Virus record (IMG/VR): IMGVR_UViG_3300018906_000009
Location: 1-25,252 of that record
Strand: one strand, 5' to 3'
From: a virus
DNA: 25,252 nt
Of this stretch, positions 6,227 through 25,106 are shown piece by piece (the first letter of the stretch is position 1; every line of letters starts with the position of its first letter). The notes under the pieces are model-generated. The model was not told where the DNA came from, did no database searches, and saw only the letters and a list, made by a program, of their open reading frames with translations. Both the position numbers and the translations under genes were made by a program.

Positions 6227-6450
6227 ACAAATCTGAATGGATCGAAACGGTTTGCTATCCGCCTAAACACGTTGGTTGGTATTTTGTGCGTAGAAACGAT
6301 GATGACGTTGTTCGGATCGCAACGATCGCGAAAGCGGATGGCTGCGTTTATTGGCAACCACCCAATACGTCTTTAAGGCTGCCACTGGACGAGTATCACT
6401 ACTGGTGTCCCGTTATTTTCCCATCAGGTGGCTATGACCGCACTGCTTGA
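6223..6450 (+). CDS. small hypothetical protein, DUF551-like pattern
   Basis: A 75-residue protein coupled to the previous gene by an ATGA overlap. The layout W-I-E near the N terminus, P-P-K, a GWYFVRR strand, a central acidic turn (NDDD), then EYHYWCPVIFP near the end resembles the small W/P-rich DUF551-type phage proteins that end in a 'HW-x-P-x-P' segment, but the match is loose. The role of such proteins is unknown. The 3' end overlaps the next gene by 17-23 bases, so the whole head block appears translationally coupled here. Confidence 0.55.
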   Translation: MNKSEWIETVCYPPKHVGWYFVRRNDDDVVRIATIAKADGCVYWQPPNTSLRLPLDEYHYWCPVIFPSGGYDRTA

Positions 6451-8623: not shown

Positions 8624-9142
8624 ATGGCTAACCAATTCTTTAACGTCAAGGTTGATACCTCAGCCTCTACCGTGTTCGGTCGCATGGCAGCGAAGCTACA
8701 GGGTACAGCGCCACTGATGAGTACGATCGCAGGCATCCTGAACAACTACGAAGATGATCTATTTGAGCAAGAGCGATCGCCCAGTGGTCAACCGTGGGCA
8801 CCGTTAGCACCTTCGACTATCAATCAGCGTGAACGTAAGGGTTTGGTGCCACTGAAGAAACTACAGGCAACGGGCAAGGGCAAGAGTGGGATCAGGGCGA
8901 TCGTTGCTTCGGGCAATCGAGTGCAGTTGACCGTCTCTGAGGACTATATGCAGTACAACAACGATGGTACGCGGCGGATACCGGCAAGGCGCTTCATACC
9001 ATCTCAGATGGAATTAGAGAGCGGTATCCTCGGTGGGCAGATTCGAGCGGCAACAGAGGCTTATCTGACACAGGGGCTAGGCGCTTTTATTGGTGGAGAG
9101 ATTGCGCGAACTCCTGGCTTTATTCGTGGATTGCGGGGCTAG
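8624..9142 (+). CDS. virion morphogenesis protein, Mu gpG-like (Phage_tail_S family)
   Basis: A 172-residue protein with the hallmarks of the phage virion morphogenesis family (PF05069; Mu gpG, P2 gpS). These are a helical N terminus, then FEQERSPSGQPWAPLAPSTI (residues ~47-66), a basic KKLQATGKGK segment, a beta stretch with NRVQLTVSEDYMQYNNDG, and the conserved RRIPARRFIP near residues 117-126. These proteins act at the head-tail junction or in tail completion, and in Mu-like phages the gene follows gpF, as here. The C terminus is Gly-rich and ends in RGLRG. The 3' end overlaps the last 23 bases of the convergent minus-strand cassette, and the late operon is interrupted straight after it. 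Confidence 0.88.
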   Translation: MANQFFNVKVDTSASTVFGRMAAKLQGTAPLMSTIAGILNNYEDDLFEQERSPSGQPWAPLAPSTINQRERKGLVPLKKLQATGKGKSGIRAIVASGNRVQLTVSEDYMQYNNDGTRRIPARRFIPSQMELESGILGGQIRAATEAYLTQGLGAFIGGEIARTPGFIRGLRG

Positions 9143-9828: not shown

Positions 9829-9909
9829 ATGACCGTTGGCAAGATTGTAGAAAGCCTTTCTGCGATCGCCCATGCCATCGGCACTTTTGCCCACAATCAA
9901 ACTGGTTAG
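9829..9909 (+). other. short reading frame overlapping the protease start
   Basis: A 26-codon frame (MTVGKIVESLSAIAHAIG...) begins at 9829 and ends at 9909, inside the protease-scaffold gene in another frame. The protease ATG at 9872 has no visible Shine-Dalgarno sequence, so this leader-like frame could deliver ribosomes to it. There is no homology support. Confidence 0.2.
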
Positions 9910-11392
9910 CGCCAAGCAAGTGCCTGTTTTCCGACTTGGAAAGCAGGTCGATTCTAATGGGATTGAGAAAGTATGGTCGCCTGCTGAATTAGATGAGGCG
10001 ATCGCCGCTTACAACGAGGTTGCCGCGAAAGCCGATCATGAAGCGCCCGTACTACATGGGCATCGTGGCAAGCACGCTTTTGGCTGGATCGAGAAAGCCT
10101 ACCGAGTTGGCGAAACAGTCTTTTGCGACCTCAAGAACGTGGTTGAAAGCTTTGCTCAGAACGTCAATAGCAAGCTACATCCCAAGCGTTCCATCAGCTT
10201 TTATCCACCTAATCACCCCAACAACCCTACACCGGGACGGTTGAACATCAATCACTTGGCTTACCTACCTGCTGAAGGTGAGGTAAATCCGGCTGTCAAG
10301 GGTCTACCCGATCACGCCTTTTCAGATGCAGAACTAGATGCCTGCATTGAGTACGAGTTTGCCGATTACAACTTTGGCGCGTGGATTGGTGGCAATCCAC
10401 TAGAAGCGGTTGCCAACCTGTTTCAGTCGTTGCGCGATCGCACCATCGAAGAAGACGACCTGGAAACAGCAGACAAATTATTTCCAGTAATGGCGATCGA
10501 TGCCATCAAAACAGCAGCCAACCAGCAATGGGCAACGGTTGACCAAGTTTTGAACATGATGCAGACCTTGCAAATGCAGGTCGATCGCCTGATTTTTCAA
10601 TCATCTGAACCCAAAGCGGAGTATGCCGAAATGAATTTGAAACAGATGGCGAAGGACAAAGGCGTGACTGCCGTTAAAGGCATTTCACCTGTGGACTTGC
10701 CCAAGATCTTGGCTGGCGATCTGGAACCGGATGACGAACAGATGAGCGCCCTGGCATCGGCAATGGGCATCGGCAAAGACGCACTTAAAAAAATGATGAC
10801 TGGAGGCAAAACCAAGGCAACTGATATGAGCGAACAACAAACCGAACAAGTTTCACAGGCTGATTTTGCAGAGTTAACTACTACCGTGCAAACGTTGCAA
10901 GCCGAACTTGCGGCGACACGCACTCAGGCAACGGCAACGGCTGAAGAGAACCGGCTATTGAAGGCAGAACGTGAAAACGATCGCATTGCCAGTTTTGTCG
11001 AAAAGCTAGTTGGCGATCGTAAGCTTCGCTCCACCGAAAAAGATGCGGTCATTCAGGAATTGAAATGGTTGCCTAATGACAACCCTGTGGAATTTTCCGA
11101 AGGTGGCGCAACGGTCAGCAAGACACCACGACAAGCCAAGATGGATCGCCTTGCCGCCTCTGCTGAATTGTATTCAGTGCGAAATATGCCCACAGGTCCA
11201 GAGTTCGACCCGACTCAGTTCAGTGAGCAGCAGAAAGCTTACGGGCTAGACATTGACTACGACACTGAATCAATCAAGCAAGACCGACTGATCCGAGCAA
11301 AGCAGGCAGAGATGGTCAAGCAAACTGGGCGACCCGTTGAATATGCCGAAGCCATGGGCGTACTCGTCAGCACTGGCGTACTCATTTCTTAG
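9872..11392 (+). CDS. head maturation protease fused to scaffold, Mu I/Z-like
   Basis: A 506-residue protein just upstream of the decoration and capsid genes. Residues ~1-150 resemble Mu gpI-type capsid proteases: APVLHGHRGKHAFGWIEKAY (H63 and H66 region), SKLHPKRSISFYPP with the candidate catalytic serine in RSISFY (~107-112), and NHLAYLPAEGEVNPAVKGLP (~124-143). The histidine plus RS-x-SF layout is shared by this fold, though the catalytic set is not certain. The C-terminal two-thirds is helical and Gln/Glu-rich, with a coiled coil (TTVQTLQAELAATRTQATATAEENRLLKAERE, ~335-370), typical of a scaffold that shapes the procapsid and is then cleaved. A nested start at codon 254 may give free scaffold. 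There is no ribosome site at the first ATG. Confidence 0.83.
   Translation: MPSALLPTIKLVSAKQVPVFRLGKQVDSNGIEKVWSPAELDEAIAAYNEVAAKADHEAPVLHGHRGKHAFGWIEKAYRVGETVFCDLKNVVESFAQNVNSKLHPKRSISFYPPNHPNNPTPGRLNINHLAYLPAEGEVNPAVKGLPDHAFSDAELDACIEYEFADYNFGAWIGGNPLEAVANLFQSLRDRTIEEDDLETADKLFPVMAIDAIKTAANQQWATVDQVLNMMQTLQMQVDRLIFQSSEPKAEYAEMNLKQMAKDKGVTAVKGISPVDLPKILAGDLEPDDEQMSALASAMGIGKDALKKMMTGGKTKATDMSEQQTEQVSQADFAELTTTVQTLQAELAATRTQATATAEENRLLKAERENDRIASFVEKLVGDRKLRSTEKDAVIQELKWLPNDNPVEFSEGGATVSKTPRQAKMDRLAASAELYSVRNMPTGPEFDPTQFSEQQKAYGLDIDYDTESIKQDRLIRAKQAEMVKQTGRPVEYAEAMGVLVSTGVLIS
10631..11392 (+). CDS. candidate nested scaffold protein, internal start in the protease-scaffold gene
   Basis: Codon 254 of the protease-scaffold gene is ATG (10631), preceded by GGAG at 10618-10621 with a 9-base spacer, a better ribosome site than that of the full-length gene. 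Initiation here would give a 253-residue protein starting MNLKQMAKDKG that holds all of the predicted coiled-coil scaffold and none of the protease. In Mu and lambda the scaffold is made from an in-frame internal start of the protease gene, so this is the expected arrangement. The start itself is an inference. Confidence 0.5.
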   Translation: MNLKQMAKDKGVTAVKGISPVDLPKILAGDLEPDDEQMSALASAMGIGKDALKKMMTGGKTKATDMSEQQTEQVSQADFAELTTTVQTLQAELAATRTQATATAEENRLLKAERENDRIASFVEKLVGDRKLRSTEKDAVIQELKWLPNDNPVEFSEGGATVSKTPRQAKMDRLAASAELYSVRNMPTGPEFDPTQFSEQQKAYGLDIDYDTESIKQDRLIRAKQAEMVKQTGRPVEYAEAMGVLVSTGVLIS

Positions 11393-11403
11393 GAAAAATT
11401 ACC

Positions 11404-11760
11404 ATGCCAAATTCTCAGCAAACTACTGTCGTCTCGACTGTTGTAGCGACAGGGACAATCTTACCGAAGCGGGGTGTGTCACGTCTTGCGGCTCAGGCAA
11501 CTGCTAATCAACCCATCATCGGTTTTTCTGATCACAAGGTCGAAGTCGATGAAGCCTTGCGACTCAATGAAGGTCCCACATCAATGGCGGAAAGTGGAGC
11601 CGCGATCGACGGCACAGAACGCCGCTTAATCATGGATGCTCAAGGGCGCGTCATCCCGTGGACAACGGGTGGCGTTGTTGCTGCATTGCTACAGCCTGGG
11701 CAGACCGCAACTGCTGCGGGTGAGTCGATCGAAGTCCGACCAGTTGTAAACCAAGCGTAG
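11404..11760 (+). CDS. DUF2190-like capsid decoration protein
   Basis: A 118-residue protein between the scaffold and major capsid genes. It is small, Ala/Thr/Val-rich and beta-like, with VSTVVATGTILPKRGVSRLAA at the N terminus, IIGFSDHKVEVDEALRLNEGP in the middle and a VIPWTTGGVVAALLQPGQTATAAGE segment near the end. This is the pattern of DUF2190 proteins, which cap or cement HK97-type capsids. The segment 'G(V)AALLQPGQTATAAGESIEV' is the most family-like part. AGGA at 11391-11394 lies 9 bases before the ATG. There are no cysteines. Position and pattern agree; the exact copy number or site on the capsid cannot be read. Confidence 0.75.
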   Translation: MPNSQQTTVVSTVVATGTILPKRGVSRLAAQATANQPIIGFSDHKVEVDEALRLNEGPTSMAESGAAIDGTERRLIMDAQGRVIPWTTGGVVAALLQPGQTATAAGESIEVRPVVNQA

Positions 11761-11772
11761 GAGGAACCCTGA

Positions 11773-12777
11773 ATGCCCGTTGATTATTCGTTGACAGCGG
11801 CTAGAGCAGGGGTATCACTACCGCTGACTAATCTAGCCCAAGGCTTTACCCAGTCGTCCTTTGTGATGCGCCTACTCTACCCATTAGTGGAAGTAGGGAC
11901 ATACGGCGGGACGACATTGCAATTTGACGAGTCTGCATACGAGCCTGCCACCGACGATCGCGCCGATGACACGCCGTACCCTGAAGTACAAAGCAACTAC
12001 GAAGGTAAACCTTTTAAGTTGAACACCAAGGGTCTGAGTTACCGAGTGGGAGACAAACGCCGCAAAGAAATGGAAAATCTGCGGATCAACTGGGGGCAAA
12101 TCGCCACTACCACGTTGATGACCAAAGCAGGCTTGAACCACGAAATTGAAGGCGCGATCAAAGCAACGACCTTAGCCAATTACGCCACTACCAACCGCTT
12201 AACGTTGGCTCCTGGTAGTCGCTTTGGCGATGTCAACCCTGACCCCATCATTCGCTCTTCTATTTCTGCCATCTCGGATCAGATCAGCGATGTTACCAAC
12301 TTGGTGGGCGTGATGGGTCGGCGCGTGTTTGATGTACTAGCAGGCAAGTACGCCACTAACTTTACCAGCACCAGTCCCGGCGTACAGCAGCAGTTGACGC
12401 TGGACACACTCGCAAACATTTACGGCTTCAGAAAGCTCGGCATTTGTGACGCGATCGCCAAGGTTGGTGGGGTCAAGACCAAAGTTTTTGGCAATGACTT
12501 TGTGATCGGTGTTGCCAATCCAGCCGCCATTCCATCTGGCTCTAGTGACGCTGGATTGCCCATCCCTTACGTCACCAACGGCACGGTAAACGCCATGACC
12601 GCAGCGTTTGGCTATACCTACGTGATGCAGAACCAGCCCCGGATGTACGCGCCGTGGGAAGACCTGGAGCGAAGAGCGCTTGTCTATCAATTGGACTTCG
12701 ATCGCGCAGTTGTAAACACCGGGGTTGGTTCAGATGGACTAATCACTCACGGCTTCTTAATTAAATCCGCAGTGTAG
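11773..12777 (+). CDS. major capsid protein
   Basis: A 334-residue protein with the strongest ribosome site in the window (AGGAGG at 11759-11764, 8-base spacer), as expected for the most abundant virion protein. It shows the usual order of a phage coat protein. An N-terminal arm (SLTAARAGVSLPLTNLAQGF) leads to a beta-rich region with FDESAYEPATDDRADDTPYP and GLSYRVGDKRRKEMENL. A long spine-like helix (INWGQIATTTLMTKAGLNHEIEGAI) and a P-domain-like middle with VFDVLAGKYATN follow. The C-terminal part includes FVIGVANPAA, PRMYAPWEDLERRALVYQLDFDRAVVNT and GFLIKSAV. Position after protease-scaffold and decoration protein settles the call. The HK97 fold is inferred. The length is typical of Mu-like and related capsid proteins, and there is no sign of truncation. 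Confidence 0.9.
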   Translation: MPVDYSLTAARAGVSLPLTNLAQGFTQSSFVMRLLYPLVEVGTYGGTTLQFDESAYEPATDDRADDTPYPEVQSNYEGKPFKLNTKGLSYRVGDKRRKEMENLRINWGQIATTTLMTKAGLNHEIEGAIKATTLANYATTNRLTLAPGSRFGDVNPDPIIRSSISAISDQISDVTNLVGVMGRRVFDVLAGKYATNFTSTSPGVQQQLTLDTLANIYGFRKLGICDAIAKVGGVKTKVFGNDFVIGVANPAAIPSGSSDAGLPIPYVTNGTVNAMTAAFGYTYVMQNQPRMYAPWEDLERRALVYQLDFDRAVVNTGVGSDGLITHGFLIKSAV

Positions 12778-12788
12778 GAGCAAGATAA

Positions 12789-13139
12789 ATGCCAGAAAAA
12801 CCGATGAAGTACAAGGTTGTTGCAGGTCCACTTTCTGTCAACAACAAACCAGTAGAGAATGACAAAACCGTTGACCTGCTACCGTCCACCGCCAAAGAGT
12901 TGGTTGAAGCCAAGGTGATCGAGTTGGTTGGTGAAGGCACCCCACCACCGGAAGAGATACCCAAGATCAATCTCAACACAGCAGGCGAGGAAGAACTGAT
13001 CGCGCTCGACCATATTGGCAAGGCTACAGCCCAAAAGCTGATTGCAGCAAGACCGATCGCCGCGTTGGAAGACGCTCAAAAAGTATTGGGTTTGAAGCCA
13101 GAACAATGGAGTGCGATCGCTCCACGCTTGATGGTGTAG
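12789..13139 (+). CDS. Mu gp35-position protein with helix-hairpin-helix domain
   Basis: A 116-residue, two-part protein. Residues 1 to ~47 (MKYKVVAGPLSVNNKPVEN then LLPSTAKELVEAKVIELVG) look like the small beta-barrel N domain of gp35-type phage proteins coded after the capsid gene. A Pro/Glu hinge (EGTPPPEEIPK) leads to a ComEA-like helix-hairpin-helix domain: INLNTAGEEELIALDHIGKATAQKLIAARP, then LEDAQKVLGLKPEQWSAIAPRL. The INLNTA start and the hIGKxxAxKhI hairpin are the family signatures for non-specific DNA backbone binding. AGGAG (12776-12780) precedes the ATG by 8 bases. In this place, between capsid and connector, a role in holding packaged DNA at the portal or in capsid decoration is plausible but not shown. 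Confidence 0.78.
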   Translation: MPEKPMKYKVVAGPLSVNNKPVENDKTVDLLPSTAKELVEAKVIELVGEGTPPPEEIPKINLNTAGEEELIALDHIGKATAQKLIAARPIAALEDAQKVLGLKPEQWSAIAPRLMV

Positions 13140-13142
13140 CGC

Positions 13143-13580
13143 ATGGCTTACTGCACCATAGACGACATGATTGCGCTGTTTGAAGAACTCGAAATCGTCG
13201 AGGCTTCAAACCTACGGGAAGCGCGGGAACGTGACCCCAATGCAGTCAAAATTCAAGCGGCGATCGACGGTGCCGTTGGCATTATTGATGGCTATCTGAT
13301 GCGTCGGTATGGTTTGCCTGTAAGCACTCCAACAGAGATTGCTGGAACGCTCAAGATTCATTGTTTGAATATTGCCCGCAATCTACTGGATGGCAGCACT
13401 GTAGAAGTCAAAGAAAAAGCAGACGGCGCGATCGCGTGGCTCAAGCTTTTCACTGATCCTGCTACGACTGGCTATGGCGATCCAGCACCAGGCGTGCAAG
13501 AGGGTGAAGGGGTTGGCAGCGTTAACTCTGAAACGCCTTGCTATTTCTGGGATACCGACACGGTAGGAGCGTTGTTCTGA
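13143..13580 (+). CDS. head-tail connector protein, Mu gp36-like (DUF1320)
   Basis: A 145-residue protein fitting DUF1320. It opens with YCTIDDMIALFEELEIVEAS (a 'Y-x-T-x-x-D-h' opening helix), then AAIDGAVGIIDGYLMRRYGLPV (~40-61), the most conserved part, then helical LKIHCLNIARNLLDG and ADGAIAWLKLF, and a disordered Gly-rich C terminus (GYGDPAPGVQEGEGVGS). In Mu-like phages this adaptor gene follows the capsid block and its product sits below the portal, joining head and tail. The order capsid, gp35, gp36, gp37 is kept here. It begins 4 bases after the preceding stop, with no clear Shine-Dalgarno sequence, so coupling is likely. Confidence 0.88.
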   Translation: MAYCTIDDMIALFEELEIVEASNLREARERDPNAVKIQAAIDGAVGIIDGYLMRRYGLPVSTPTEIAGTLKIHCLNIARNLLDGSTVEVKEKADGAIAWLKLFTDPATTGYGDPAPGVQEGEGVGSVNSETPCYFWDTDTVGALF

Positions 13581-14011
13581 TGCTCCTAAGCAAGATTGAG
13601 AGCGCGATCGCACAACGTTTGAAACCATTGGAGCGTGAAAACCTCAAGGTCATTGTCTTCCCCGACGATCCTAAAGAGTTAAAACTACCTGCCTTCAATC
13701 GGATCATCGTGCGTTATCTCAGCGAAAGTTTAACGCCCCCACAAACATTCAACCCGCACGCCCCTTGCTATCAGCAGCGCTTTTTGGAGTTCCAGGTTTT
13801 CATCCAATACCAGGACTTGAGAGCCAAAAAAGGGTTGGGTGTGACGGACTTGATGGATCAGATCCGCGATCGCTTGACCTTTTTCAAGCCGGTGCCGGAT
13901 GGCAAATGGCTGTACCAATCTAGCGGCGGGTTCAGTGAATTATTTCAAGACTTTTGGGCGTACACAATGAACTTCACATTGCCCTATCCCTACACAAAAC
14001 AACCGGAGTAA
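13580..14011 (+). CDS. Mu gp37-like (DUF1834) head-tail or tail completion protein
   Basis: A 143-residue protein starting at an ATG that overlaps the preceding TGA (TGATG), with AGGAG upstream at 13565-13569; a longer in-frame start at 13538 would run deep into the previous gene and is less likely. The sequence MLLSKIESAIAQRLKPL, then LKVIVFPDD, PAFNRIIVRYLS, FLEFQVFIQYQDLRAK and LMDQIRDRLTFFKP fits the gp37/DUF1834 and related minor tail terminator pattern: an N-terminal helix, then a strand-helix-strand core with 'F-x-V-x-h-x-Y-x-D-L'. Such proteins close the tail tube or join it to the head. The C terminus is LPYPYTKQPE. Confidence 0.8.
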   Translation: MLLSKIESAIAQRLKPLERENLKVIVFPDDPKELKLPAFNRIIVRYLSESLTPPQTFNPHAPCYQQRFLEFQVFIQYQDLRAKKGLGVTDLMDQIRDRLTFFKPVPDGKWLYQSSGGFSELFQDFWAYTMNFTLPYPYTKQPE

Positions 14012-14015
14012 ATAG

Positions 14016-14795
14016 ATGGCATTACTGTATGGCATGGGCAGATTCGTGATAGAAACGGTGGGTCTTACACCTAACATCTTGGTTCCAGCCGAACCCGTTA
14101 CCTTTTCGATGAATGTCGATTCCGAGGATCAAGAATCGCTTAAATGGAAAGACGGTATCAAAGTAGCGGCGGGTGCTGCTACGACCAAAGTCACGTACAC
14201 CTTGCAGTTCAACGTGCAGGCGGCTACATGGTTCGTCATGCAACTTGCGACTGGTGAACTAGCGCAAACGACCGCTTCTGCCAGCCTTAAAGATGTTAAG
14301 TATGGCACTGTGCCACTAACCGCGCCCTATGAGATTGCAGATGAGGCGTTGACGACTCAGAATGTACTAGTGAGCATTACCACCTCTGGCGCATGGGGCA
14401 AGGCGCGACCATTGACGCTGACCGCAGCAGAGGCGACAGCGCCAGCAACCGCTAACGAAGTGCAGGTGAAAACCTCTGCACCTAAAAAATTGGTGTTTGA
14501 TGCGACTGCTGCTGGAGCACCGATCGCCTATCGCGTTTTGAATACTTACACAAGCCTCTCTAGTATTGGCGTTGAAGCTTCAGCCGTCACGTTGAGCGCC
14601 TTTGGCTTTGCAGGCATTGCTTATGGCGACGAAGAAAAGTACCGAATTGATGTACCGCGCATGGTGAACATCGGCCGACCGACGATTGAAGTTAACGATG
14701 TGACTGAACTCGAATTTAACTACAAGCTGATTACCACTGGAGCCGATCGCCTGCCATTCAAGATGTATGACATCACTGGCGTTGTCTTGCCGTAA
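14016..14795 (+). CDS. virion structural protein, possible tail tube protein
   Basis: A 259-residue, beta-rich protein directly after the gp37-like gene, where the tail tube or sheath would be expected. It has alternating hydrophobic strands (VTFSMNVDSEDQESLKWKDGIKVAAGAATTKVTYTLQFNVQ, quoted only as the region at residues ~30-70), an Ala/Thr-rich middle (LTLTAAEATAPATANEVQV) and a C-terminal strand set ending FKMYDITGVVLP. The features 'TKVTYTLQFNVQ' and 'ITTGADRLPFKMYDITG' are the kind seen in tail tube proteins, but no family motif is decisive. If it is the tube protein it is the only tail-shaft gene in the window. It could also be a fibre-anchoring structural protein. Confidence 0.45.
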   Translation: MALLYGMGRFVIETVGLTPNILVPAEPVTFSMNVDSEDQESLKWKDGIKVAAGAATTKVTYTLQFNVQAATWFVMQLATGELAQTTASASLKDVKYGTVPLTAPYEIADEALTTQNVLVSITTSGAWGKARPLTLTAAEATAPATANEVQVKTSAPKKLVFDATAAGAPIAYRVLNTYTSLSSIGVEASAVTLSAFGFAGIAYGDEEKYRIDVPRMVNIGRPTIEVNDVTELEFNYKLITTGADRLPFKMYDITGVVLP

Positions 14796-14801
14796 CCGCA
14801 A

Positions 14802-14912
14802 ATGTCCTTCCCGCCTACCAATCTAGCCACAGCCGATCGCGCCCTCACTTGCAATAGGAGAGTTAACGGGATGGACGTTCAGTTGAGACGGTTGAGCGCT
14901 GAGGTGGTCTGA
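14802..14912 (+). CDS. short reading frame coupled to the giant fibre gene
   Basis: A 36-codon frame (MSFPPTNLATADRALTCNRR...) whose stop overlaps the ATG of the 1926-residue protein (TGATG at 14910-14914). An internal ATG at 14871 is preceded by AGGAG at 14856-14860 with a 10-base spacer and would make only 13 residues. No homology is recognised; it may be a leader that couples translation to the fibre gene. The fibre gene also has its own GAGG at 14901-14904. Confidence 0.35.
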   Translation: MSFPPTNLATADRALTCNRRVNGMDVQLRRLSAEVV

Positions 14913-17900
14913 TGGCAGTACTCTTTGACGATCAAATTAGTCGCGCTGCCGCTGCCGCCCAAACCGTCGCCAATGGTGACGTTTACACGATCCAGGGGGA
15001 TTGCCTGACTGCTGGCACTGCTGCTATTGCCAACCGCTATCTAGGAGCGATCACAGTATCAGAAGGAACGCTATTGGTTGATGGCGATGTTTCCGAAATT
15101 GGTGTTGCCAACACAACAAACGCAACCGTAGGACAGTCGATCGCAGGTGGCACGAGTGGCGCTACTGCTGTAATCACGCAGTTGATTAGCTCGACTCGGA
15201 TCAAATATCGCGCTACAAATAATCTTGCTTTTAGTAACGGCGAAACAATTTCAGGCGGTAGTTTTAGCGCTGCTGCAAACACCGCTCCATCACTCAGTAC
15301 TCTGATGGTTTTGGGCAACCAGGGCACAGCCATCACGACGCAAACGCGAGGCAGCATCAAAACGCGAGGCTTGTGGTATCAGCTTGGAGTGAGCAACGGC
15401 ACAGCAAATCAAACGTTTACAAGTCCGTTTCCCGCTAACGCCGTTCTTCCCGCTGTCTGGGTTCAGATCGGCTTTACTGTCACGATTCAAAGCACTGCAA
15501 CCCTATCCTCTAGACATTTATTCAGCAACGGGCAGACTGTAAAACTGGTCGGTGGCCTAACGGGGACAGGTTTTAACGATGCGACAATTTATTATGTCGT
15601 TAGCTCCGATCAGTCTGGGCTGACTGGCGACTTCGGCTCTAGCTTTTCGCTTGCGCTCACAAAAAACGGGACAGCGATCGCGGCAACAGGTGCCGCTAGC
15701 GCAACGGTATTGGCAGCCGGGACAACCTTTAGTTGCACGAACGGCTCAACAACCCTGACCAGTAGCGCTGGGCATTCCTACGCTGTAAACGATGCTCTTT
15801 CGGTTGTCGCTTCTGTCGGTGGGTTTAATGCGCGGTACACCTACTATGTGGTGGCAACTAGCGGTAATGATTTTGCTCTTTCGCTCACAAGGGGCGGAAC
15901 GCCGATCGCGGCGACTGCAAGCGGTACGGGCGAAACCCTTCCTGGCAATGCGTTCACTCGATGGCTCAATGTTGTCGATCGCAACCTGACGGCCTTCGGC
16001 AATGGTGCCAATCATGGTGAGTTTTGCAAACAGACGATCGGCGCAACCTCAATCACCTTTGGAGACGAAGGCACAAGCGTTAGCACGACGGCAACCTTTA
16101 CCAATGGTTCAACAACGATCACGACCGGTGCGGCTCACGGTCGAGCGATCGGTGATGTTGTTCGTCTGACGACTACCGGAACCCTGGCAGGTAACTTTGC
16201 TACAGCGACCGATTATTATGTCTTGACGGTGCCATCGACGACAAGCTTGACGGTTTCCACACTGCCGATCAACAGCGCGATCGCTGCTTCAGGTACAGGC
16301 ACAGGCACCCATACACTAATACCGCAGATTGGTGGCAGAATCCCGCCGAACGGAGCGCTGATTCGTTGTCAAAACATTTTGCTAGGCAATACATCGTCTG
16401 GCACGGCACCAGTACCACAGCTACCTGCAACAGCATCGTACTGGTTGCTCAACACCAGTTCTTTTGGGCAGATCTCGTTAGAGCGATCGATCCTTTGTGG
16501 GTTTTTAATCGATATAGCGAACCCCACCACCCTGTTGATGCAAGGGGTGAGCGTTTTTGGTTATATGCAGGTTTCTAACACTGGCACCAGAGGCGTTATT
16601 AACAATTTTGCCTTAACCAATAACAACGCATTATCCCCGACGATCGCTTTCTCACTGGCTTCAACCGATCTAGATTTGAGCGATGCATCTGCTCTCAGCA
16701 CAAACAACACCACGGCTCAAATTCAATCGGCTCAGGGCACTACAATCAATCGCTGTAACTTCAACAACACGCGATCGAACTCGACTGCCACAGCGCTTAA
16801 TATATCGAGTGTCCAAAATATTGTCATTACAAATAGCCGCTTCATTGGGGCTAACCTAAAGTTTGCCAATTATACGAATGTTACGGTCCTATATCCTTTT
16901 ACCTCAAGCAACAATGCTAATGCGGTCAATCAAAACAATAGTCAATCTTGCTATCAGGTAACGGCAAACGGTTCAAACCTGCTGATTAACTATCCGTGGT
17001 ATGGCTCACCGTTTGGCGATCGATTAATTCAAATTGATGCCGCCGTGTTCACGGTACGGCTCGCAAACTTTGGCACGTCAAACCGCAACTATAGCCTGCT
17101 GAACAACACTAACGTGGTCGTGGCTGCAACCGCAGCACTGTCTACGATCGAGTCGCTAAGACTCACTAACTTTTTTGTGACAAACGCTAGAAATGCTTAT
17201 TTGTCGCAACCCAATAACGCCACCATCAAGAATTTGCAGATCAAAGGCGGCGGGTCTGTTTCGTCCGGTTTTGATGCTGCAAGAGTCAAAGCTGGTTTTG
17301 TTTTAGGCTGGCGAAATGGCTATTTTGGTTCGGTTTATGGCACTTTTACGGCTTTTGCTGGTGTACATTTTTTTCAGCGCATTGCTGACAACACAAACTT
17401 AGAGCTAGCGCTACTTTTCTTTGAAAAGATCGCTAGCGATTATTACAGCAATCTCAGCTACACGATTACAGCAGGCGCGCCAACATTTGCAAGCGGTGGC
17501 AACGGCACCCTGAATATGATTACTGGCGATCAGATCCGGTATCTGACACCATTCCCGATCTACAAATTTACGGCGCTGGCTTCGATCGCAACCAGCACGA
17601 CCGGGACGATCGACTTTCAGTACAGAATCGCCGCTGGCAAAGCTGCGCCATCGGGCGCTTTTAAGGCGATGTCCTCCTCCAACCTGGCTGCCGAAACAGT
17701 TTCAGCGACGACAGGTTTCAGGATCGAAATTCAGATCACTTGCACCGCCACGGGCACGGTTTCGGGTTTTAGACTATTAGGCGCGACATCGCTAACGGCT
17801 CAAGCCGCTTATAGCTACCCAGCCAGCACAGCCTCGATCGTCGTGACGGGCATTGTTCCCGATAGTACGATCGGGTTGTTTGATGAGAGCAATAATTTAA

Positions 17901-20692
17901 TCGAAGCCGCGATCGTCCCTGGCACGTCTTACACGTTTGCGCCAATTGATTTTGATACGCCTGTCGCCTACACCTATAAATTACGGCGTTATGGCTATTA
18001 CGAATACAGCGCGACCATTTTGCTGGCAGACGGCACGACGATCGATCCAGCGATTCAGTTGGTGAATCCGCTGACATCTTTATCGAGTGCAGCTGCTGCG
18101 GCGTTAACAGGCATCAGTGTCGATCATAATACTCAAACCATTACCCAAACAGCAAACAGAACGCTATCGGAATTAAGAGACTATCTCCAATACGATGCAA
18201 CACTGCTCACGAACATCGGCAGAGCGATTCCTTACACAACAATAAATGGCACTGATCTAACACTGACTTATAGCTATAGTCGTTCAAGCTGCGCTTTGAC
18301 TGGTACCGGTAGCCTGAGTCTGCCCACCAAAACCGCCACAATCACAGGGGATACGAGTAGCGGGCAACTACCCGTTACAGATTCTACGGGTTTGCGCTTC
18401 CGAGTCTATGGGTTGCCAGCCAGTAATAATCCGGTGATGCGATCGAAGCGAGTCAGCAACTCAGTCATCACCAACCCTGCCATTAACAGTAATGGGGAGG
18501 CTTATTTCACGATCGCGCTCGGGGAGGATTATCAACTGAGGGCAGACGCGATCGGCTATAACGCTTCAGGGTTTATCACGATCAACAGCAATAGCGCCAC
18601 CTCTGTACAAATCAGTCTCGCTCAAGTTCTGGATGCTAACGGCGCTCCAGTTTATGGGCAGGGTATAGCAGGCGAAAAGGCGTTGATCACGTTCAACCCT
18701 GCGACTCTGACCATCTCGATCGCTTACTCTGCCTTATACCCCACGATCAGCCTGTTCAGTGCCTTCGACAAAATCGAAGAATTGCTAGCGACGACCACGG
18801 CGATTGAATTTACAGCTCATCCCATTTACAACAACGGGACGATCTTCTTCCCGCGTGACATTCTGACCAATGCGGCAAACCCAGCACGGATTCAGGCGGA
18901 TTCAGGTAATACGGGCACCCCGACGCTGACGTTTCAGATTGTTGACCAGGCCAGCACGACTCCTTACAACCTGTTCAACTTCTCGAACGGGAAATTTATC
19001 AACTACCCGACGACTGTTAATGTGGCCCAGGTGCAGGGGGATGGATCGTTTACGGTCAGCGATCGGACTCAACTGACGGCACTCAATGCCACACTTGCTA
19101 CTTCAGGCGTGTTTAGCACAGCAGCATTAGCCAATGCGCCTACAGGTTCCGGTGGAGGTGGCAGTGGTTTAGACGCAGCAGGCGTGAGAGCAGCGATCGG
19201 TCTAGCTGCTGCAAATCTGGATACTCAACTGACCAGCATCAACACAAATATCGATCAGATCCCTACAACTGATTACGCTCCAAACATTACTGCTATCAAA
19301 GCAAAAACGGATCAGTTGAGTTTTACAACAGCGAATCGGGTTGATAGTACAGCCGTTGCGGTCAGCGACAAAACAGGCTTTAGTCTTGCCACCACTCAGG
19401 CGTTTAATCTCACTGGCAACATCACCGGCAATCTTTCAGGCAGCGTGGGCAGTGTGACGAATGCGGTGAGCCTGCCTGCCATCCCGAACAACTGGATCAC
19501 GGCAGCGGGTGTAGCGACAGACGCGATCGACGCTGACGCTTTAGCGACCTCTGCTATCACTGAGATTCAAGCAGGGCTGTCAACCTATGCAGGCAGTGAC
19601 ACTTCAGGCGTGACGACCTTGCTGGGCAGGCTCACCAGTGGTCGAGCGACAAACCTGGACAACCTCAACGCTTCAGTTGCAGCTTTACCAACACTAAGCC
19701 AAATTGAAGCCTCTACGGTTTTGTTTAAGGCGAGTAGCTATACCGCTCCCGCGAACAGCTCAATCCTGAGTGCGATCGGCGCTATCCCGACGACTCCTTT
19801 ACTTGCCAACGATGGCAGGCTTAATAATTTAGATGCAACTATCAGCAGTCGCCAAGCCTCCTTTACCTATATTGCTCCAAACAACGCTGGTATCGCCTCA
19901 ATTCAAAGCACACTGGCAGCAATTCAGGGCACGACCTTCAACACCGCTACGGACAGCCTGGAAGCCATCAGAGATAGGGGTGATACGGCGTGGACTACCG
20001 CAACCGGGTTCAGTACATTCAACCCAGCTACCCAGACCGTAACGCTAGCAGTCGCCCCACCGACCGCCAATCAGATTGCCGCTGCGGTTGAGTCGGCTCT
20101 AGCAGATGATTTTGCAGGCGTAACGATCGACCTTACACCAGTACTAAACGCGATCGACCCACTCCCAACACTCACAGAGATTGAGGCTTCGACCGTACTG
20201 TTTAAGGTGAGCAACTATACGGCACCCAACAACACCGCGATCGCAGCTATCAAAGCTAAAACAGATAATCTACCCACATCGCCTGCCTCTACCAGCGATG
20301 TACAGGTAACAGTGAGCGGTGGCTTTACCAACGACGATCGCGCCACACTGGGCAGTATTCCAACAGATAAGATTGGCTATGCCTTGACAGGGGCAGAAAA
20401 GACCGCAGTGGCGATCGCGGTTGAAACTCAGTTAAGCAGCGAGTTCAACGCCATACCCAACGCTTTAGAAATCCGACAGGAGTTAGACGCGAATAGCACG
20501 AGACTAAGCGCGATCGCTGCTAACGCTGAACTCTCCAGACAAGGCGTTAGCAATCGGTACAAGATTGATGAGGCAAACAACACAGGCACTCTGTACGATG
20601 ATGATGGGGTTACACCGTTAGTGGTCCACACCCTCACAGATAAAGACGGCAACCCTGCGAGCGAGTCCACCTACGAACGGGTGCCCCAGTAA
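14912..20692 (+). CDS. giant tail fibre/adhesin with beta repeats and fibre-type C-terminal repeats
   Basis: A 1926-residue virion protein, rich in T, S, N, A and G. Residues ~190-470 hold three related beta-rich modules of the form 'sNGstTLTtsagHsyavGDvV...ATxYYVV...sfsLalTxxGtpIAAt' (about 190-265, 273-345, 396-470). Residues ~500-775 look like a right-handed beta-helix, with many short strands and N/S/T turns (LNISSVQNIVITNSRFIGANL). Residues ~960-1055 resemble an Ig-like or carboxypeptidase-regulatory-like domain. After a GSGGGGSG hinge (~1411), the last 515 residues carry fibre-type repeats: SVGSVTNAVSLPAIPNNWITA, IEASTVLFKxSxYTAPxN (1597 and 1757) and AIKAKTDxL (1461 and 1779). Likely role: binding the host surface, possibly with glycan recognition by the beta-helix. 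No catalytic site was identified. Confidence 0.8.
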   Translation: MAVLFDDQISRAAAAAQTVANGDVYTIQGDCLTAGTAAIANRYLGAITVSEGTLLVDGDVSEIGVANTTNATVGQSIAGGTSGATAVITQLISSTRIKYRATNNLAFSNGETISGGSFSAAANTAPSLSTLMVLGNQGTAITTQTRGSIKTRGLWYQLGVSNGTANQTFTSPFPANAVLPAVWVQIGFTVTIQSTATLSSRHLFSNGQTVKLVGGLTGTGFNDATIYYVVSSDQSGLTGDFGSSFSLALTKNGTAIAATGAASATVLAAGTTFSCTNGSTTLTSSAGHSYAVNDALSVVASVGGFNARYTYYVVATSGNDFALSLTRGGTPIAATASGTGETLPGNAFTRWLNVVDRNLTAFGNGANHGEFCKQTIGATSITFGDEGTSVSTTATFTNGSTTITTGAAHGRAIGDVVRLTTTGTLAGNFATATDYYVLTVPSTTSLTVSTLPINSAIAASGTGTGTHTLIPQIGGRIPPNGALIRCQNILLGNTSSGTAPVPQLPATASYWLLNTSSFGQISLERSILCGFLIDIANPTTLLMQGVSVFGYMQVSNTGTRGVINNFALTNNNALSPTIAFSLASTDLDLSDASALSTNNTTAQIQSAQGTTINRCNFNNTRSNSTATALNISSVQNIVITNSRFIGANLKFANYTNVTVLYPFTSSNNANAVNQNNSQSCYQVTANGSNLLINYPWYGSPFGDRLIQIDAAVFTVRLANFGTSNRNYSLLNNTNVVVAATAALSTIESLRLTNFFVTNARNAYLSQPNNATIKNLQIKGGGSVSSGFDAARVKAGFVLGWRNGYFGSVYGTFTAFAGVHFFQRIADNTNLELALLFFEKIASDYYSNLSYTITAGAPTFASGGNGTLNMITGDQIRYLTPFPIYKFTALASIATSTTGTIDFQYRIAAGKAAPSGAFKAMSSSNLAAETVSATTGFRIEIQITCTATGTVSGFRLLGATSLTAQAAYSYPASTASIVVTGIVPDSTIGLFDESNNLIEAAIVPGTSYTFAPIDFDTPVAYTYKLRRYGYYEYSATILLADGTTIDPAIQLVNPLTSLSSAAAAALTGISVDHNTQTITQTANRTLSELRDYLQYDATLLTNIGRAIPYTTINGTDLTLTYSYSRSSCALTGTGSLSLPTKTATITGDTSSGQLPVTDSTGLRFRVYGLPASNNPVMRSKRVSNSVITNPAINSNGEAYFTIALGEDYQLRADAIGYNASGFITINSNSATSVQISLAQVLDANGAPVYGQGIAGEKALITFNPATLTISIAYSALYPTISLFSAFDKIEELLATTTAIEFTAHPIYNNGTIFFPRDILTNAANPARIQADSGNTGTPTLTFQIVDQASTTPYNLFNFSNGKFINYPTTVNVAQVQGDGSFTVSDRTQLTALNATLATSGVFSTAALANAPTGSGGGGSGLDAAGVRAAIGLAAANLDTQLTSINTNIDQIPTTDYAPNITAIKAKTDQLSFTTANRVDSTAVAVSDKTGFSLATTQAFNLTGNITGNLSGSVGSVTNAVSLPAIPNNWITAAGVATDAIDADALATSAITEIQAGLSTYAGSDTSGVTTLLGRLTSGRATNLDNLNASVAALPTLSQIEASTVLFKASSYTAPANSSILSAIGAIPTTPLLANDGRLNNLDATISSRQASFTYIAPNNAGIASIQSTLAAIQGTTFNTATDSLEAIRDRGDTAWTTATGFSTFNPATQTVTLAVAPPTANQIAAAVESALADDFAGVTIDLTPVLNAIDPLPTLTEIEASTVLFKVSNYTAPNNTAIAAIKAKTDNLPTSPASTSDVQVTVSGGFTNDDRATLGSIPTDKIGYALTGAEKTAVAIAVETQLSSEFNAIPNALEIRQELDANSTRLSAIAANAELSRQGVSNRYKIDEANNTGTLYDDDGVTPLVVHTLTDKDGNPASESTYERVPQ
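15484..16320 (+). repeat. three diverged beta-rich protein modules in the fibre N-terminal region
   Basis: Three related modules share an 'xxATfxNGsTtITtxxaHxxxxGDxVxL' start, a 'TxYYVh' centre and an 'hAASGTGTxT' end. The second (from codon 273) and third (from codon 396) match best; the first (from ~190) is more diverged. They arose by duplication of a structural module within the gene. Confidence 0.6.
19703..20275 (+). repeat. duplicated ~160-residue segment in the fibre C-terminal region
   Basis: The string IEASTVLFK with a following YTAP(A/N)N appears at codons ~1597 and ~1757, each introduced by LPTL(S/T). A related YIAPNNAGIASI lies between, and AIKAKTD appears at ~1461 and ~1779. This shows internal duplication of a fibre shaft unit. 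Confidence 0.6.
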
Positions 20693-21000
20693 TGTTTCCT
20701 ACAGGCATCAACCCTAGAGGCACTAACGCAGGCTTCCCGCTGGGCATCAACCCAACAACGCTGCTACGGGTCCTGATCGAATGCATTACCGTCACGTTCC
20801 TGGCTCAGTCGATCGCCGCTCTCACCTTCACGGAAACGATCGCCGCTCTCACCTTCACCCCTGACGCTGGCAGTTCACTACTCTTTACCTCGTCTAGCGC
20901 TGCACTCACATGGACTACCACAGAAAGCGCTTTAAGCTTCCTCAATTCGATCGAACCGGAGTTAACATTCAATGCCCTCACCAGTTGCCCCACGCCCTGA
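20692..21000 (+). CDS. small fibre-associated hypothetical protein with 9-residue repeats
   Basis: A 102-residue protein whose ATG overlaps the stop of the giant fibre gene (TAATG). It starts with a repeated GINPxGTNAGFPLGINP motif and continues with a run of near-identical 9-residue units (AQSIAALTF, TETIAALTF), followed by looser SSAALTWT and ESALSFL copies and ELTFN. The alternating small/hydrophobic/Thr pattern suggests a beta-solenoid-like or strand-repeat extension. The family is unknown. By position it could be a fibre tip, chaperone or collar component. Its 3' end overlaps the next gene by 29 bases. Confidence 0.6.
   Translation: MFPTGINPRGTNAGFPLGINPTTLLRVLIECITVTFLAQSIAALTFTETIAALTFTPDAGSSLLFTSSSAALTWTTTESALSFLNSIEPELTFNALTSCPTP
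20810..20858 (+). repeat. 27-base tandem repeat, exact over 22 bases
   Basis: Two copies beginning CGATCGCCGCTCTCACC start at 20810 and 20837, identical over 22 bases and offset by 27 bases. They encode the units AQSIAALTF and TETIAALTF. The identity at DNA level shows a recent duplication; the HIP1-like core CGATCG is inside each copy. Confidence 0.85.
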
Positions 21001-21385
21001 TCTGACCGTTGGCGATCCTTATACCGTCCCAGGATTTACCGTGGTGATCAATGGCAGCGCGATCGCTGAAACGACATCAGTTAAAGCGGCGATCGTCTCA
21101 CCAGCGCTCTCACCCACTGCTGATGATGTAACCCTGGTGCCAGCGATTGCCTGCACTGTGACTGCACCAAGTAGCGGCATCTGGACGGCAACTTTTAGCG
21201 CTGAAGCAACCAAGGGGCTTTTAGATAACCCGCTGAATCTGGGCAGTAAATTAGTCAAGTCAGTGCGAGGGGCGATCGACGAGGCTACGGGCTACGGCAC
21301 TGCCAAGCTAGAGATTCAGATCGGTTCGCCCTATTTCGTGACTTGGCACTCGACCATTACGATCGGTAAAGGTTTGATTGCCTGA
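20972..21385 (+). CDS. small beta-rich protein, last gene of the late operon
   Basis: A 137-residue protein, predicted mostly beta: TVGDPYTVPGFTVVINGSAIAETTSVKAAIVSP, a Thr/Val-rich CTVTAPSSGIWTATFSAEATKGLLDN middle, and LEIQIGSPYFVTWHSTITIGKGLIA at the end (these segments describe residues ~10-42, ~57-82 and ~112-137). The 'IWTATFSAEATKGL' part resembles the immunoglobulin-like or BppU-type N-terminal domains attached to phage fibres and baseplates. It overlaps the previous gene by 29 bases and ends just before a hairpin that probably terminates the transcript. A fibre or fibre-anchoring role is likely by context; no specific function is known. Confidence 0.65.
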   Translation: MPSPVAPRPDLTVGDPYTVPGFTVVINGSAIAETTSVKAAIVSPALSPTADDVTLVPAIACTVTAPSSGIWTATFSAEATKGLLDNPLNLGSKLVKSVRGAIDEATGYGTAKLEIQIGSPYFVTWHSTITIGKGLIA

Positions 21386-21390
21386 TGGTT

Positions 21391-21425
21391 GGGGCGATCG
21401 TACTCTCGCCCCTCTCTCGTTCCAT
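21391..21425 (+). terminator. probable terminator of the late operon
   Basis: GGGGCGA (21391-21397) pairs with TCGCCCC (21406-21412) over 7 GC-rich base pairs around an 8-base loop, 6 bases after the last late gene. The tail (TCTCTCGTTCC) is T/C-rich, without a long T run. Position and stem strength favour termination, possibly imperfect. Confidence 0.5.
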
Positions 21426-21570: not shown

Positions 21571-21630
21571 GGGCGAATAAAGGGGATCGAACCTACGATG
21601 TGTGGATGACAAATCCGCACAATAAGCCCT
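21571..21630 (-). other. tRNA 3'-half-like sequence, candidate attachment core
   Basis: On the reverse strand this reads an anticodon-arm-like hairpin followed by GGTTCGATCCC (21583-21593), an exact match to a tRNA T-loop/B box. Tyrosine integrases commonly use tRNA 3' halves as the crossover site. The T stem does not pair properly and no acceptor or D arm is visible, so this is not a functional tRNA. The att role is inferred from its position next to the integrase. Confidence 0.35.
21600..21620 (+). repeat. 8-bp hairpin in the integrase upstream region
   Basis: GTGTGGAT (21600-21607) and ATCCGCAC (21613-21620) pair over 8 base pairs, one of them a G-T wobble, around loop GACAA. It pairs better as + strand RNA than as reverse strand RNA. 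It is either part of the tRNA-like remnant or a separate structured element. Confidence 0.5.
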
Positions 21631-21749
21631 ATCACAATCGACCTTTCAGAATAAAGGTGGCTGTAAAGCTTCTATAGCGGTCTTTCAATGAAACCTGTAA
21701 AGGTCTATGCTTGCCCATGTAAGATGCAAAATCAGCAAAAGATCAGCAA

Positions 21750-22841
21750 ATGGTTTTTGACAGCAAAGCCGAGATCGCTCGCCTTAATGCGGTTTTCAGG
21801 TCTGAGAAAAACGGAGCAACGATCGAGCAAATTGGCGATCGTCTGTACATACGTGGCACTTTCCCACCCAAGCCGAGAGATGCCCGCCGTGAGCCATACT
21901 TTCAGAGGATAGCACTAGGAATATATGCCAACGCTTCTGGGGTGAAACGGGCAAAAGAAGAAGTTAAACGCATTAGCAGCGATTTGGCGATGGGGCGCTT
22001 TAGCTGGGACGCATACCTCAAGAAGACACTCAGCAATCAAACTGTTGCTGACTGGGTGAAGGAGCTTGAAAAACAGTATTTTCAACAACGCAAGCGATCG
22101 CCTAAGACTCAGACGACCTGGGATAAAGATTATGCAACGTCGCTAAAAAAGCTGCCCCAGGAGAAAGCTTTGACTGTAGCCGTTTTGCTGGAGGCGATCG
22201 CCAAAACTGACCCAGACACTAAAACCCGCAAACGTGTCTGCATGGCTTTTAGCCGTTTAGCAAAGTTGGCAGGGATTGAGCTAGACGTAACTCAACTAAA
22301 AGGTAACTATTCGCCTTCGGGGGTGCAGTCGCGAGACTTGCCAAGTGACGCTCTGATCTTAGAATGGCGCGACAGGATTGAAGATCCGGCTTGGCAGTGG
22401 GTCTACGGCATGATGGCGACTTACGGGCTGAGAAATCATGAAGTCTTTCTGATTGACGTAGAGAGCCTGCGTGATGCACCTGGAGCTTTGACCGTACTCG
22501 ATGGGAAGACAGGCGGACGAAGGGTTTATCCTTGCCCTGCGGAGTGGTGGCAGAAATGGGAGTTGTGGAAGGTACAGCAGCCAGCGGTCACTGGCAAAAA
22601 TCATTCGGCGCTAGGGAAGCGTGTAACGCAATACTTTAGCCGACATGAAACCCCTTTCCCGCCTTACGCTCTAAGACATTGTTGGGCAGTGAGGACGGCA
22701 GTCATGGGCTTAGATCCGTCGATTTCAGCCAAGATGATGGGTCATAACCTTCTTGTGCATAATCGTACCTACCACAGGTTTCTCAATGAAAGCCACTTAC
22801 AAACAGCATGGGAAGCGGTGCAAAGACCTAAGAACGAGTAG
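21750..22841 (+). CDS. tyrosine recombinase integrase
   Basis: A 363-residue phage integrase that would recombine attP with the host attB. The N-terminal ~90 residues form an arm-binding-like region with RLYIRGTFPP and YFQRIALGIYANASGVKRAKEE. A core-binding helical domain (~105-195) follows. The catalytic domain has Arg I in YGLRNHEV (R228), Lys in LDGKTGGRR (K253), box II YALRH (Y306, R309, H310), MGH (H332) and the nucleophile in NRTYHRF (Y341). The usual first histidine of box II (HxLR) is a tyrosine here, a change known from other phage integrases. The ATG at 21750 is the only good start, since a stop lies in frame at 21720; there is no clear ribosome site. The 3' end overlaps the convergent endonuclease-like gene by 14 bases. 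Confidence 0.93.
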   Translation: MVFDSKAEIARLNAVFRSEKNGATIEQIGDRLYIRGTFPPKPRDARREPYFQRIALGIYANASGVKRAKEEVKRISSDLAMGRFSWDAYLKKTLSNQTVADWVKELEKQYFQQRKRSPKTQTTWDKDYATSLKKLPQEKALTVAVLLEAIAKTDPDTKTRKRVCMAFSRLAKLAGIELDVTQLKGNYSPSGVQSRDLPSDALILEWRDRIEDPAWQWVYGMMATYGLRNHEVFLIDVESLRDAPGALTVLDGKTGGRRVYPCPAEWWQKWELWKVQQPAVTGKNHSALGKRVTQYFSRHETPFPPYALRHCWAVRTAVMGLDPSISAKMMGHNLLVHNRTYHRFLNESHLQTAWEAVQRPKNE

Positions 22842-23637
22842 TAAACGCTCTTTCAACACTCCAACCCCACAAGTAAAGCCTACCCCACAAAACGTTTTGC
22901 TTTATACACAAATCTCTTGCCCACTGATTTAGACTTTGGGATTTGCCATTCCATTCAATCAGTTTTATTTGAGCAGGTTTTTGATTTAAAGCCTTCTCCA
23001 AGTCCCACCCTTTATCAATTCTGTATTTCAATGTTGTAGAAGTAACACCAAGACTTTCAGCCCATTCAGCTAACGTCTTTGTACAGCCCTGAAACTCAAT
23101 CAATCGATTATTTCGCCTATTTCTGCCCTGCGTTTTTGCCGTTGCCCATCGACAATTGTCTGGACTATAAGACTTTTCATTGTCTTCCCTATCAAGAGTG
23201 TAGCCGACAGGAGGATCTCCCATGTCAGCATAAAAATTCTCAAAACTTTCTACCCATCGATCGCAAACAGTAATGCCCCTGCCACCGTAATCTTTCCAAC
23301 GTGACCTATTGGGACTGTTGCACCTTACAAGCATTGCTATCCAATGCTTGTGTGCCTGAGTGTGGGATAAGCCATGAGTTCTTAACCCTTTTCCGCGATC
23401 GCATCCGCAAGATTTAATAGACTTTTTTCTTAAATGCTTGCCACTTACAGAATGAGTTTTACCACAATCGCATTGACAGCGCCATTTAATTTTGCCGTCG
23501 TTAGTTCTACCATCTTCAAAAAGAACGACAAGCATACCAAATCGATTGCCAGTCAAATCTATGCGATTGTGATTTCTACCATCCACCATTGTTGTAAACA
23601 TGTTAGGACATACTTGCATTATAGCAATAGATACCAC
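22828..23637 (-). CDS. zinc-ribbon/HNH-like endonuclease-type protein
   Basis: A 269-residue protein of the phage HNH/AP2-like group. A four-cysteine ribbon is visible at C56-x-C58 and C77-x-C79 (CQCDCG ... KSCGC). Then comes KHWIAMLVRCNSPNRSRWKDYGGRGITVCDRW, the conserved 'RC-N-P ... YGGRGI-x-VC-x-RW' block (~95-130), and TLDREDNEKSYSPDNCRWAT (~145-165), an HNH-like loop in which the usual H is R. The C-terminal 100 residues carry two similar helix-turn-helix-like segments (KTLAEWAESLGVTSTTLKYRI; QSLNQWARDLCIKQNVLWGRL), NUMOD-like DNA-binding repeats. Members are often mobile or homing endonuclease-like genes. The start could be the ATG at codon 17. It is the last gene of the minus-strand operon and its stop lies inside the integrase gene. 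Confidence 0.8.
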   Translation of the reverse strand: MVSIAIMQVCPNMFTTMVDGRNHNRIDLTGNRFGMLVVLFEDGRTNDGKIKWRCQCDCGKTHSVSGKHLRKKSIKSCGCDRGKGLRTHGLSHTQAHKHWIAMLVRCNSPNRSRWKDYGGRGITVCDRWVESFENFYADMGDPPVGYTLDREDNEKSYSPDNCRWATAKTQGRNRRNNRLIEFQGCTKTLAEWAESLGVTSTTLKYRIDKGWDLEKALNQKPAQIKLIEWNGKSQSLNQWARDLCIKQNVLWGRLYLWGWSVERAFTTRS

Positions 23638-24524: not shown

Positions 24525-25106
24525 TTAAATGCTCTCCTCAAGTGCTTTATTCAAGCGTTGAGCTTCACGGTTAAAAGCTGTTCCGCCATGCCGCGATCGC
24601 AGCTTTTCGATGTTTGCTTTAAGAACAACTTCTAAAGGGATATCAAAATACTTCAGGATGCAAAGCAGTATATGAAATATGCACTGCATCGTAATTTGAG
24701 CTTCTTTCCTGTCTAAGCTTTCTTCATTAAAAAGATGATTCAGCATAACTTGCGACATGCGCCCAGTCTCAGAACTCAAATACAATGCAGACCTTGGTAA
24801 CACAATCGGAGCGTCTGCAAACTCAATTAAAGTAAGCTGAGTTTGTCGGGCGATCAGAATACGATCACACTCAAGCCTTTGCATCAGAGCAAACCAATAC
24901 CAAGCCAAGTCGCCAGCCTCTTTAATTAAATTCACTCGGTTAAAGAGATCGCCATGATAAAGATGTTTTTTCAGTGCGTCGGTTACTTCACCCGCTTCGC
25001 CAGATAAACCTATTGTGAAGTTAGCTAGTAAGTCACGATCGCTCAGTTCTTTAGATTCAGCGAAACCCCGTACATGGTCGTCAAATTCTTGTAAAGCGTT
25101 AGACAT
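24525..25106 (-). CDS. MazG-like nucleotide pyrophosphohydrolase with a degenerate second repeat
   Basis: A 193-residue all-alpha NTP pyrophosphohydrolase-like protein. The first half holds the MazG metal motif ExxE...ExxD: GLSGEAGEVTDALKKHLYH (E37, E40) and LIKEAGDLAWYWF (E63, D66). The second half repeats the same pattern, ALYLSSETGRMSQVMLNHLF, then a hydrophobic helix ITMQCIFHILLCILKYFDI, but only the first glutamate (E113) is kept; R116 and non-acidic residues replace the others. It ends in the typical ANIEKLRSRHGGTAF tail. Viral MazG proteins hydrolyse NTPs/dNTPs or alarmones and are common in cyanophages, where they may alter host nucleotide or stress metabolism. A good AAGGAG lies ~10 bases before the ATG. 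Confidence 0.83.
   Translation of the reverse strand: MSNALQEFDDHVRGFAESKELSDRDLLANFTIGLSGEAGEVTDALKKHLYHGDLFNRVNLIKEAGDLAWYWFALMQRLECDRILIARQTQLTLIEFADAPIVLPRSALYLSSETGRMSQVMLNHLFNEESLDRKEAQITMQCIFHILLCILKYFDIPLEVVLKANIEKLRSRHGGTAFNREAQRLNKALEESI

Follow-up and report, generated by a model that had tools for sequence, protein, structure and literature searches.

Where are the remaining tail genes of a phage whose late operon runs from terminase to integrase without a recognizable tape measure? The question is raised by IMGVR_UViG_3300018906_000009, and "the window" below means the whole of this IMG/VR record (25,252 bases), which is classed as linear and has no end repeats. Since the window is a linear fragment of this kind, a gene absent from it need not be absent from the element. 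Its relatives reach about 36-37 kb (the contig L012 is 36 kb and the complete Leptolyngbya phage Lsp-JY19 is 37.4 kb), implying that roughly a third of the element is probably missing from the record. In the window, a rightward-reading late operon that contains a Mu-type head module leads to an integrase, which is followed by leftward early-type genes, among them an HNH endonuclease (22828..23637, minus strand; PHROG 374, 1.3e-67) and a MazG-like pyrophosphohydrolase (24525..25106, minus strand; family match). At the left end an N6/N4 DNA methyltransferase gene is truncated, leaving its C-terminal part (3..389, plus strand; Pfam PF01555, 1.2e-12; PHROG DNA methyltransferase).

From capsid to tube

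All genes of the late operon are on the plus strand. A putative small terminase subunit with a helix-turn-helix (420..926; weak HTH_38; PHROG 645, 1.8e-21) precedes the large subunit TerL (835..2454; Terminase_6N, 7e-6; Terminase_6C). These are followed by a Mu-type portal with a long C-terminal extension (2490..5609; Portal_Mu, 2.3e-56), a minor head-type protein with an extra C-terminal domain (6428..8305; PHROG 24776, 3e-47; minor head PHROG 19443), a virion morphogenesis or neck protein of the Mu gpG type (8624..9142; Phage_tail_S, 1e-8; PHROG 26 neck), and a head maturation protease with scaffold (9872..11392; PHROG 976, 7.7e-56). Next are a gp35-like head protein (11404..11760), which is 43% identical to the protein at the equivalent position in Nodularia phage vB_NpeS-2AV2 (2AV2), the major capsid protein (11773..12777; PHROG 1005, 1.3e-34; 46.6% identical to the 2AV2 capsid), and a helix-hairpin-helix protein in the interval between capsid and gp36 (12789..13139; HHH_3, 1.2e-9). 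The module continues with a head-tail adaptor of the Mu Gp36 family (13143..13580; PF07030, 1.1e-13; 52% identical to gp36 of L069) and a Mu Gp37 family protein at the tail-terminator position (ATG at 13580, to 14011; PF09646, 1.4e-9; homologous to the equivalently placed 2AV2 protein, 4e-8). Thus Mu-type portal, protease, capsid, Gp36, and Gp37 are all present and in order, as judged by Pfam, PHROG, and the comparison with 2AV2.

The C-terminal 305 residues of the portal (window 4690-5609) are 90% identical to positions 10001-10915 of L021 (IMGVR_UViG_2910170622_000001), a 109-kb contig otherwise unrelated to the window, where they form the end of a 1633-residue protein. This sequence evidence points to a domain that was exchanged recently and became joined to a head protein, and that by eye looks like an ADP-ribosyltransferase. 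L021, which came up in the portal search, was rejected as a relative of the element, as this domain is all they have in common. A small XRE-type HTH regulator (window 9510-9764, minus strand) is found directly before the protease and has equivalents in the sister contig described below and in Nodularia phages.

Immediately after Gp37 is a gene for a 259-residue protein (14016..14795). Its homologues share 99% identity in the sister contig, 39% in G412 (= L026), 35% in L069, and 29-30% in G308, L012, and L014; another, in G420, is detected by profile. In every locus found the homologue is directly 3' of Gp37, and in six of them (L069, G412, G420, G308, L012, and L014) it clusters with a chaperone and/or tape measure gene. 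Because of this constant position and clustering, there is little doubt that the 259-residue protein is the tail tube (major tail) protein, a function assigned from homology and synteny. AlphaFold models built with five and then seven homologues gave pLDDT values of 39 and 44 without a reliable fold match and were not used as evidence; the low confidence is probably due to too few sequences. The tube proteins of the Nodularia phages are not detectably similar to it, as seen for the annotated 2AV2 major tail protein in both sequence and profile comparison, and the tube profile has no meaningful match among the sequences of solved structures. As Gp37 occupies the usual place of the tail terminator, the window has two core long-tail genes in addition to fibres. 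The statement of an earlier sequence-only reading that this operon lacks a tail is therefore too strong.

The same reading had noted the absence of tape measure, sheath, lysozyme, and baseplate proteins, and this stands. None of these families is found in the main ORFs of the window by Pfam or PHROGs. The tape measure is also missing from a six-frame search of the window with a profile of the relatives' tape measures, and tblastn of the window with six relatives' tape measures, one chaperone, and one hub protein gave no match. Where a sheath gene might follow Gp37, the window has the tube and fibre genes instead; L004 is the only relative with a sheath. A search of IMG/VR for the element's tail block with two tape-measure queries returned no contig from the sample of the sister contig (3300041964), and a search of cyanobacterial genomes with TerL, capsid, and tube returned no closer complete prophage.

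Beyond the tube is a fibre cassette. It begins with a 1926-residue beta-rich protein (14912..20692), a tail fibre or receptor-binding protein similar in composition to the 2AV2 fibre. Helix-favouring windows make up 14% of it, compared with 59-75% in three known tape measures. The possibility that this protein is the tape measure was rejected on these grounds, and its earlier description as a fibre is upheld. Two small ORFs follow, one without a family match (20692..21000) and the other the last before the integrase (20972..21385). The latter is in the position of a BppU-like gene in the sister contig; despite the equivalent place there is no significant similarity between the two. The tyrosine integrase itself (21750..22841; Phage_integrase, 2e-4, which is under Pfam's cut-off; PHROG 1, 2e-11) belongs to a family common in cyanobacteria; within one order, 33 of 36 genomes have a relative. 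ORF coordinates together with Pfam and PHROG matches confirm the order capsid, gp36, gp37, 259-residue protein, 1926-residue protein, two small ORFs, and integrase that had been read from the sequence. The terminator placed before the integrase does not hold up: terminator-like matches around it are no better than chance, and between 21385 and 21750 none stands out. A tRNA-like stretch at about 21575-21635 was considered as an attachment site and rejected, as it has no Rfam match and contains no tRNA; no copy of it (allowing up to two mismatches) occurs in 36 genomes. One relative of the integrase is encoded on L057 (NZ_CP046059.1), a 17-kb Microcystis plasmid that also encodes a VapE-domain protein. 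VapE-domain genes are often seen in phage satellites.

The left edge of a sister contig

The sister contig of the window is G001 (IMGVR_UViG_3300041964_000051). Its capsid and tube proteins are 99% identical to those of the window, pieces of the minor head-type protein are 93-96% identical, and the head-to-tube module is common to both. At the DNA level the two are about 90% identical over several blocks that extend from TerL to base 14899 of the window, where similarity ends sharply, 13 bases 5' of the start codon of the fibre gene. Past the tube G001 has a different set of fibre genes, with the BppU-like gene last before the integrase. Its integrase, which has GIY-YIG and Arm domains, is also of a different type and unrelated to that of the window. 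There is no tape measure between tube and integrase in G001 either. An integrase thus terminates the late operon twice, in two elements whose right arms differ. A second mosaic junction is found near the terminases, where the small subunits differ (window 420-926, G001 990-1517) and homology returns inside TerL. Several frameshifts occur in TerL, portal, a 625-residue head gene, and gp36 of G001 (L005, L002), representing either decay or sequencing error.

The left edge of G001 bears on the missing genes. Here the minus strand has a 97-residue gene whose stop codon overlaps (ATGA) the start of the next gene. Of this next gene, about 1 kb upstream of the terminase, 20 codons remain before the contig ends (bases 60-1, minus strand), encoding MTIQWIEFPPVAEFQDRHGK. 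This peptide matches the N-termini of the tail assembly chaperones of L069 (MEWISFAPTAEFEDRAG, score 59) and G412 (AVEFFEFAPAAEFVDRTG, score 48). The best score among 1085 control ORFs is 23 (with the L069 chaperone itself excluded), and none of 20,000 shuffles attained 59 or 48. An HMM of chaperone N-termini gives MTIQWIEFPPVAEFQDRHGK an E value of 5e-4, the top match in the two contigs; with a profile of the entire chaperone the value is 0.58, which is what a stretch of 20 residues would be expected to give. Note that these genes are called chaperones from their place directly before the tape measure and from their mutual similarity, and that no family model recognizes them. The simplest reading of this edge is that the tail block of G001 begins at this point and is read leftwards past the end of the contig, away from the terminase operon. 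A complete tail module directly flanking the window had been named as the observation that would count against the earlier reading. What the sister element offers is part of this: a chaperone-like gene does start upstream of the terminase, with 20 codons of it visible, and no tape measure is seen for G001 or for the window's own element. The left edges of the two contigs are not alike, the methyltransferase of the window reading towards the terminase and the genes of G001 diverging from it. The tail block of the window may therefore lie elsewhere.

Arrangements of the tail block in relatives

In L069 (tube 35%, gp36 52%, and gp37 48% identical to those of the window) and G412 the order is gp36-gp37-tube-chaperone-tape measure on one strand. 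For G412 a PHROG match (7e-27) and tblastn matches to annotated tape measures confirm the last of these genes. The tape measures of L069 and G412 have 1240 to at least 1360 residues, and across the loci of the tube's relatives those that are complete, or almost, have about 1225-1360. G420 has the order gp37-tube-fibre genes-chaperone-tape measure, a BppU-like gene and a collagen-like fibre being found between tube and chaperone, and so provides a precedent for a fibre cassette directly 3' of the tube. G308, L012, L013, and L014 have chaperone, tape measure, and hub as an inverted block, convergent with the tube gene. This suggests, from gene order in G308 (L009) and these three contigs, that the tail block may have been inverted or relocated more than once. 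G308 and G420, both cyanobacterial transposable prophages, and contigs L012, L014, L026, and L069 all have a tail tube and Gp37 homologous to those of the window. Unlike the window, however, all six have a visible tape measure, their tail block being downstream or inverted. G308 and G420 also carry transposase-type genes, as read from sequence, whereas the window has a tyrosine integrase.

Another example of a tape measure distant from the tube is found in cultured phages. 2AV2 and vB_NspS-kac65v151 are siphoviruses of the genus Ravarandavirus with genomes of 139-147 kb; 2AV2 was described as a member of the Siphoviridae (PMC5210698) and is the closest cultured relative of the window by capsid. 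Its protease, gp35, capsid, gp36, and gp37 are homologous to and colinear with those of the window. In both phages the major tail protein is at 26 kb and is soon followed by a long fibre-like gene (beta-rich in 2AV2), while the annotated tape measure is far from the tube, at 124-134 kb in 2AV2 and 123-133 kb in kac65v151. In 2AV2 this is about 98 kb past the major tail protein, or about 13 kb upstream of the portal if the record is circularly permuted. A displaced tape measure thus already occurs among siphoviruses with this head module. Two differences are that the tape measure of the Nodularia phages is on the same strand as the head genes and that no tyrosine integrase is seen beside their fibres, unlike in the window. 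The 1526-residue gp073 and the 806-residue gp043 of 2AV2 had also been checked as tape measure candidates and were superseded by the annotated gene at 124 kb.

Lsp-JY19 and the B3-like Mu-headed siphophages have, as does the window, a Mu-type portal and capsid followed by connectors and a tail tube. In Lsp-JY19, unlike the window, the chaperone and tape measure closely follow the tube; its capsid is only 23% identical. L004, a prophage contig of Leptolyngbyaceae CSU_1_4, has a capsid 62-64% identical to that of the window and a homologous protease and gp35, yet by eye its genes after gp37 are those of a contractile tail (sheath, tube, and tape measure).

A probable displaced tail block and its alternatives

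The best explanation of these comparisons is a temperate cyanobacterial siphophage that has a Mu-type head module and is covered incompletely by the window, its tail block being displaced to a position beyond the contig end. We give this reading a probability of about 85%. Gene order and the incompleteness of the contig, rather than a tailless or parasitic particle, very probably account for the apparent lack of a tail. A displaced tail block, one of the options raised by the sequence-only reading, is supported for the lineage by the opposite-strand chaperone start in G001 and by the distance between tape measure and tube in the closest cultured siphophages. For the window itself it is likely, and the block would be located on the part of the element outside the record.

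In the arrangement we propose, one late operon would begin with the terminase, continue with portal, capsid, neck, and tail-terminator genes, and reach the tail tube and fibres before ending at the integrase. A second block would hold the chaperone, tape measure, hub, and remaining distal tail genes, and in this lineage would have moved away from the tube gene; in G001 it would begin about 1 kb upstream of the terminase in the opposite direction. The tail would be an ordinary non-contractile one, with its length set by the chaperone and tape measure. The 259-residue protein would polymerize into the tube and Gp37 would cap it. The gpG-type neck protein and Gp36 would connect this tail to the head, and the 1926-residue protein and its partners would bind the host.

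Of the alternatives, the one that survives best, though it is improbable, is that the tail block was lost by deletion at the junction of tube and fibre, in a decayed prophage or in a chimera produced by recombination or assembly. The sharp end of homology 13 bases before the fibre gene counts in its favour, as do the frameshifts in TerL, portal, and head genes of G001. The structural ORFs of the window are intact, however, and a coherent fibre cassette and integrase are found past the junction in both contigs. G420 also has a fibre cassette at this spot.

A somewhat smaller probability, one that makes the idea quite unlikely, is given to a capsid-forming satellite that would make head, neck, tail tube, and fibres itself but obtain its tape measure and baseplate from a helper. 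Capsid-forming PICIs encode capsid, portal, connectors, terminase, and HNH endonuclease (PMC10690885). The window is like them in having its own copies of all these and an integrase. A fibre gene is also present, and in both the window and G001 the interval from tube to integrase has no tail genes beyond fibres. These islands depend on the tails of their helpers, yet the window has, besides capsid and packaging genes, tail genes of its own (tail tube, the tail-terminator-type gene Gp37, and fibre). The relatives of its tube are found in long-tail clusters with a tape measure, and a tail assembly chaperone starts at the edge of G001. The earlier suggestion of a head-only satellite that borrows tails thus finds no support. 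If the satellite reading were true, the helper would set the length of the tail and the satellite its own host range.

Least probable of all, and likewise without support as first proposed, is a minimal or short podovirus-like tail for which tube and fibre would suffice: the tube does adjoin the fibre with nothing between, but its relatives are found in clusters with long tape measures, the Mu-type order of gp36, gp37, and tube belongs to long tails, the 1926-residue protein is not like a tape measure, and no short-tail (podovirus) families are found in the window by Pfam or PHROG, where a tail tube homologue is present.

For cyanophages in general the case is a caution that single contigs of these mosaic genomes are unsafe for calling satellites or tailless particles. 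In this group the tape-measure block may be found immediately after the tube, at that place but inverted, or across the terminase, as the edge of G001 and the Nodularia phages indicate. That the head-to-tube operon is separate from a tail block able to move, and that fibre and integrase cassettes are exchanged right after the tube, would be a small but useful insight into the genome architecture of cyanophages.
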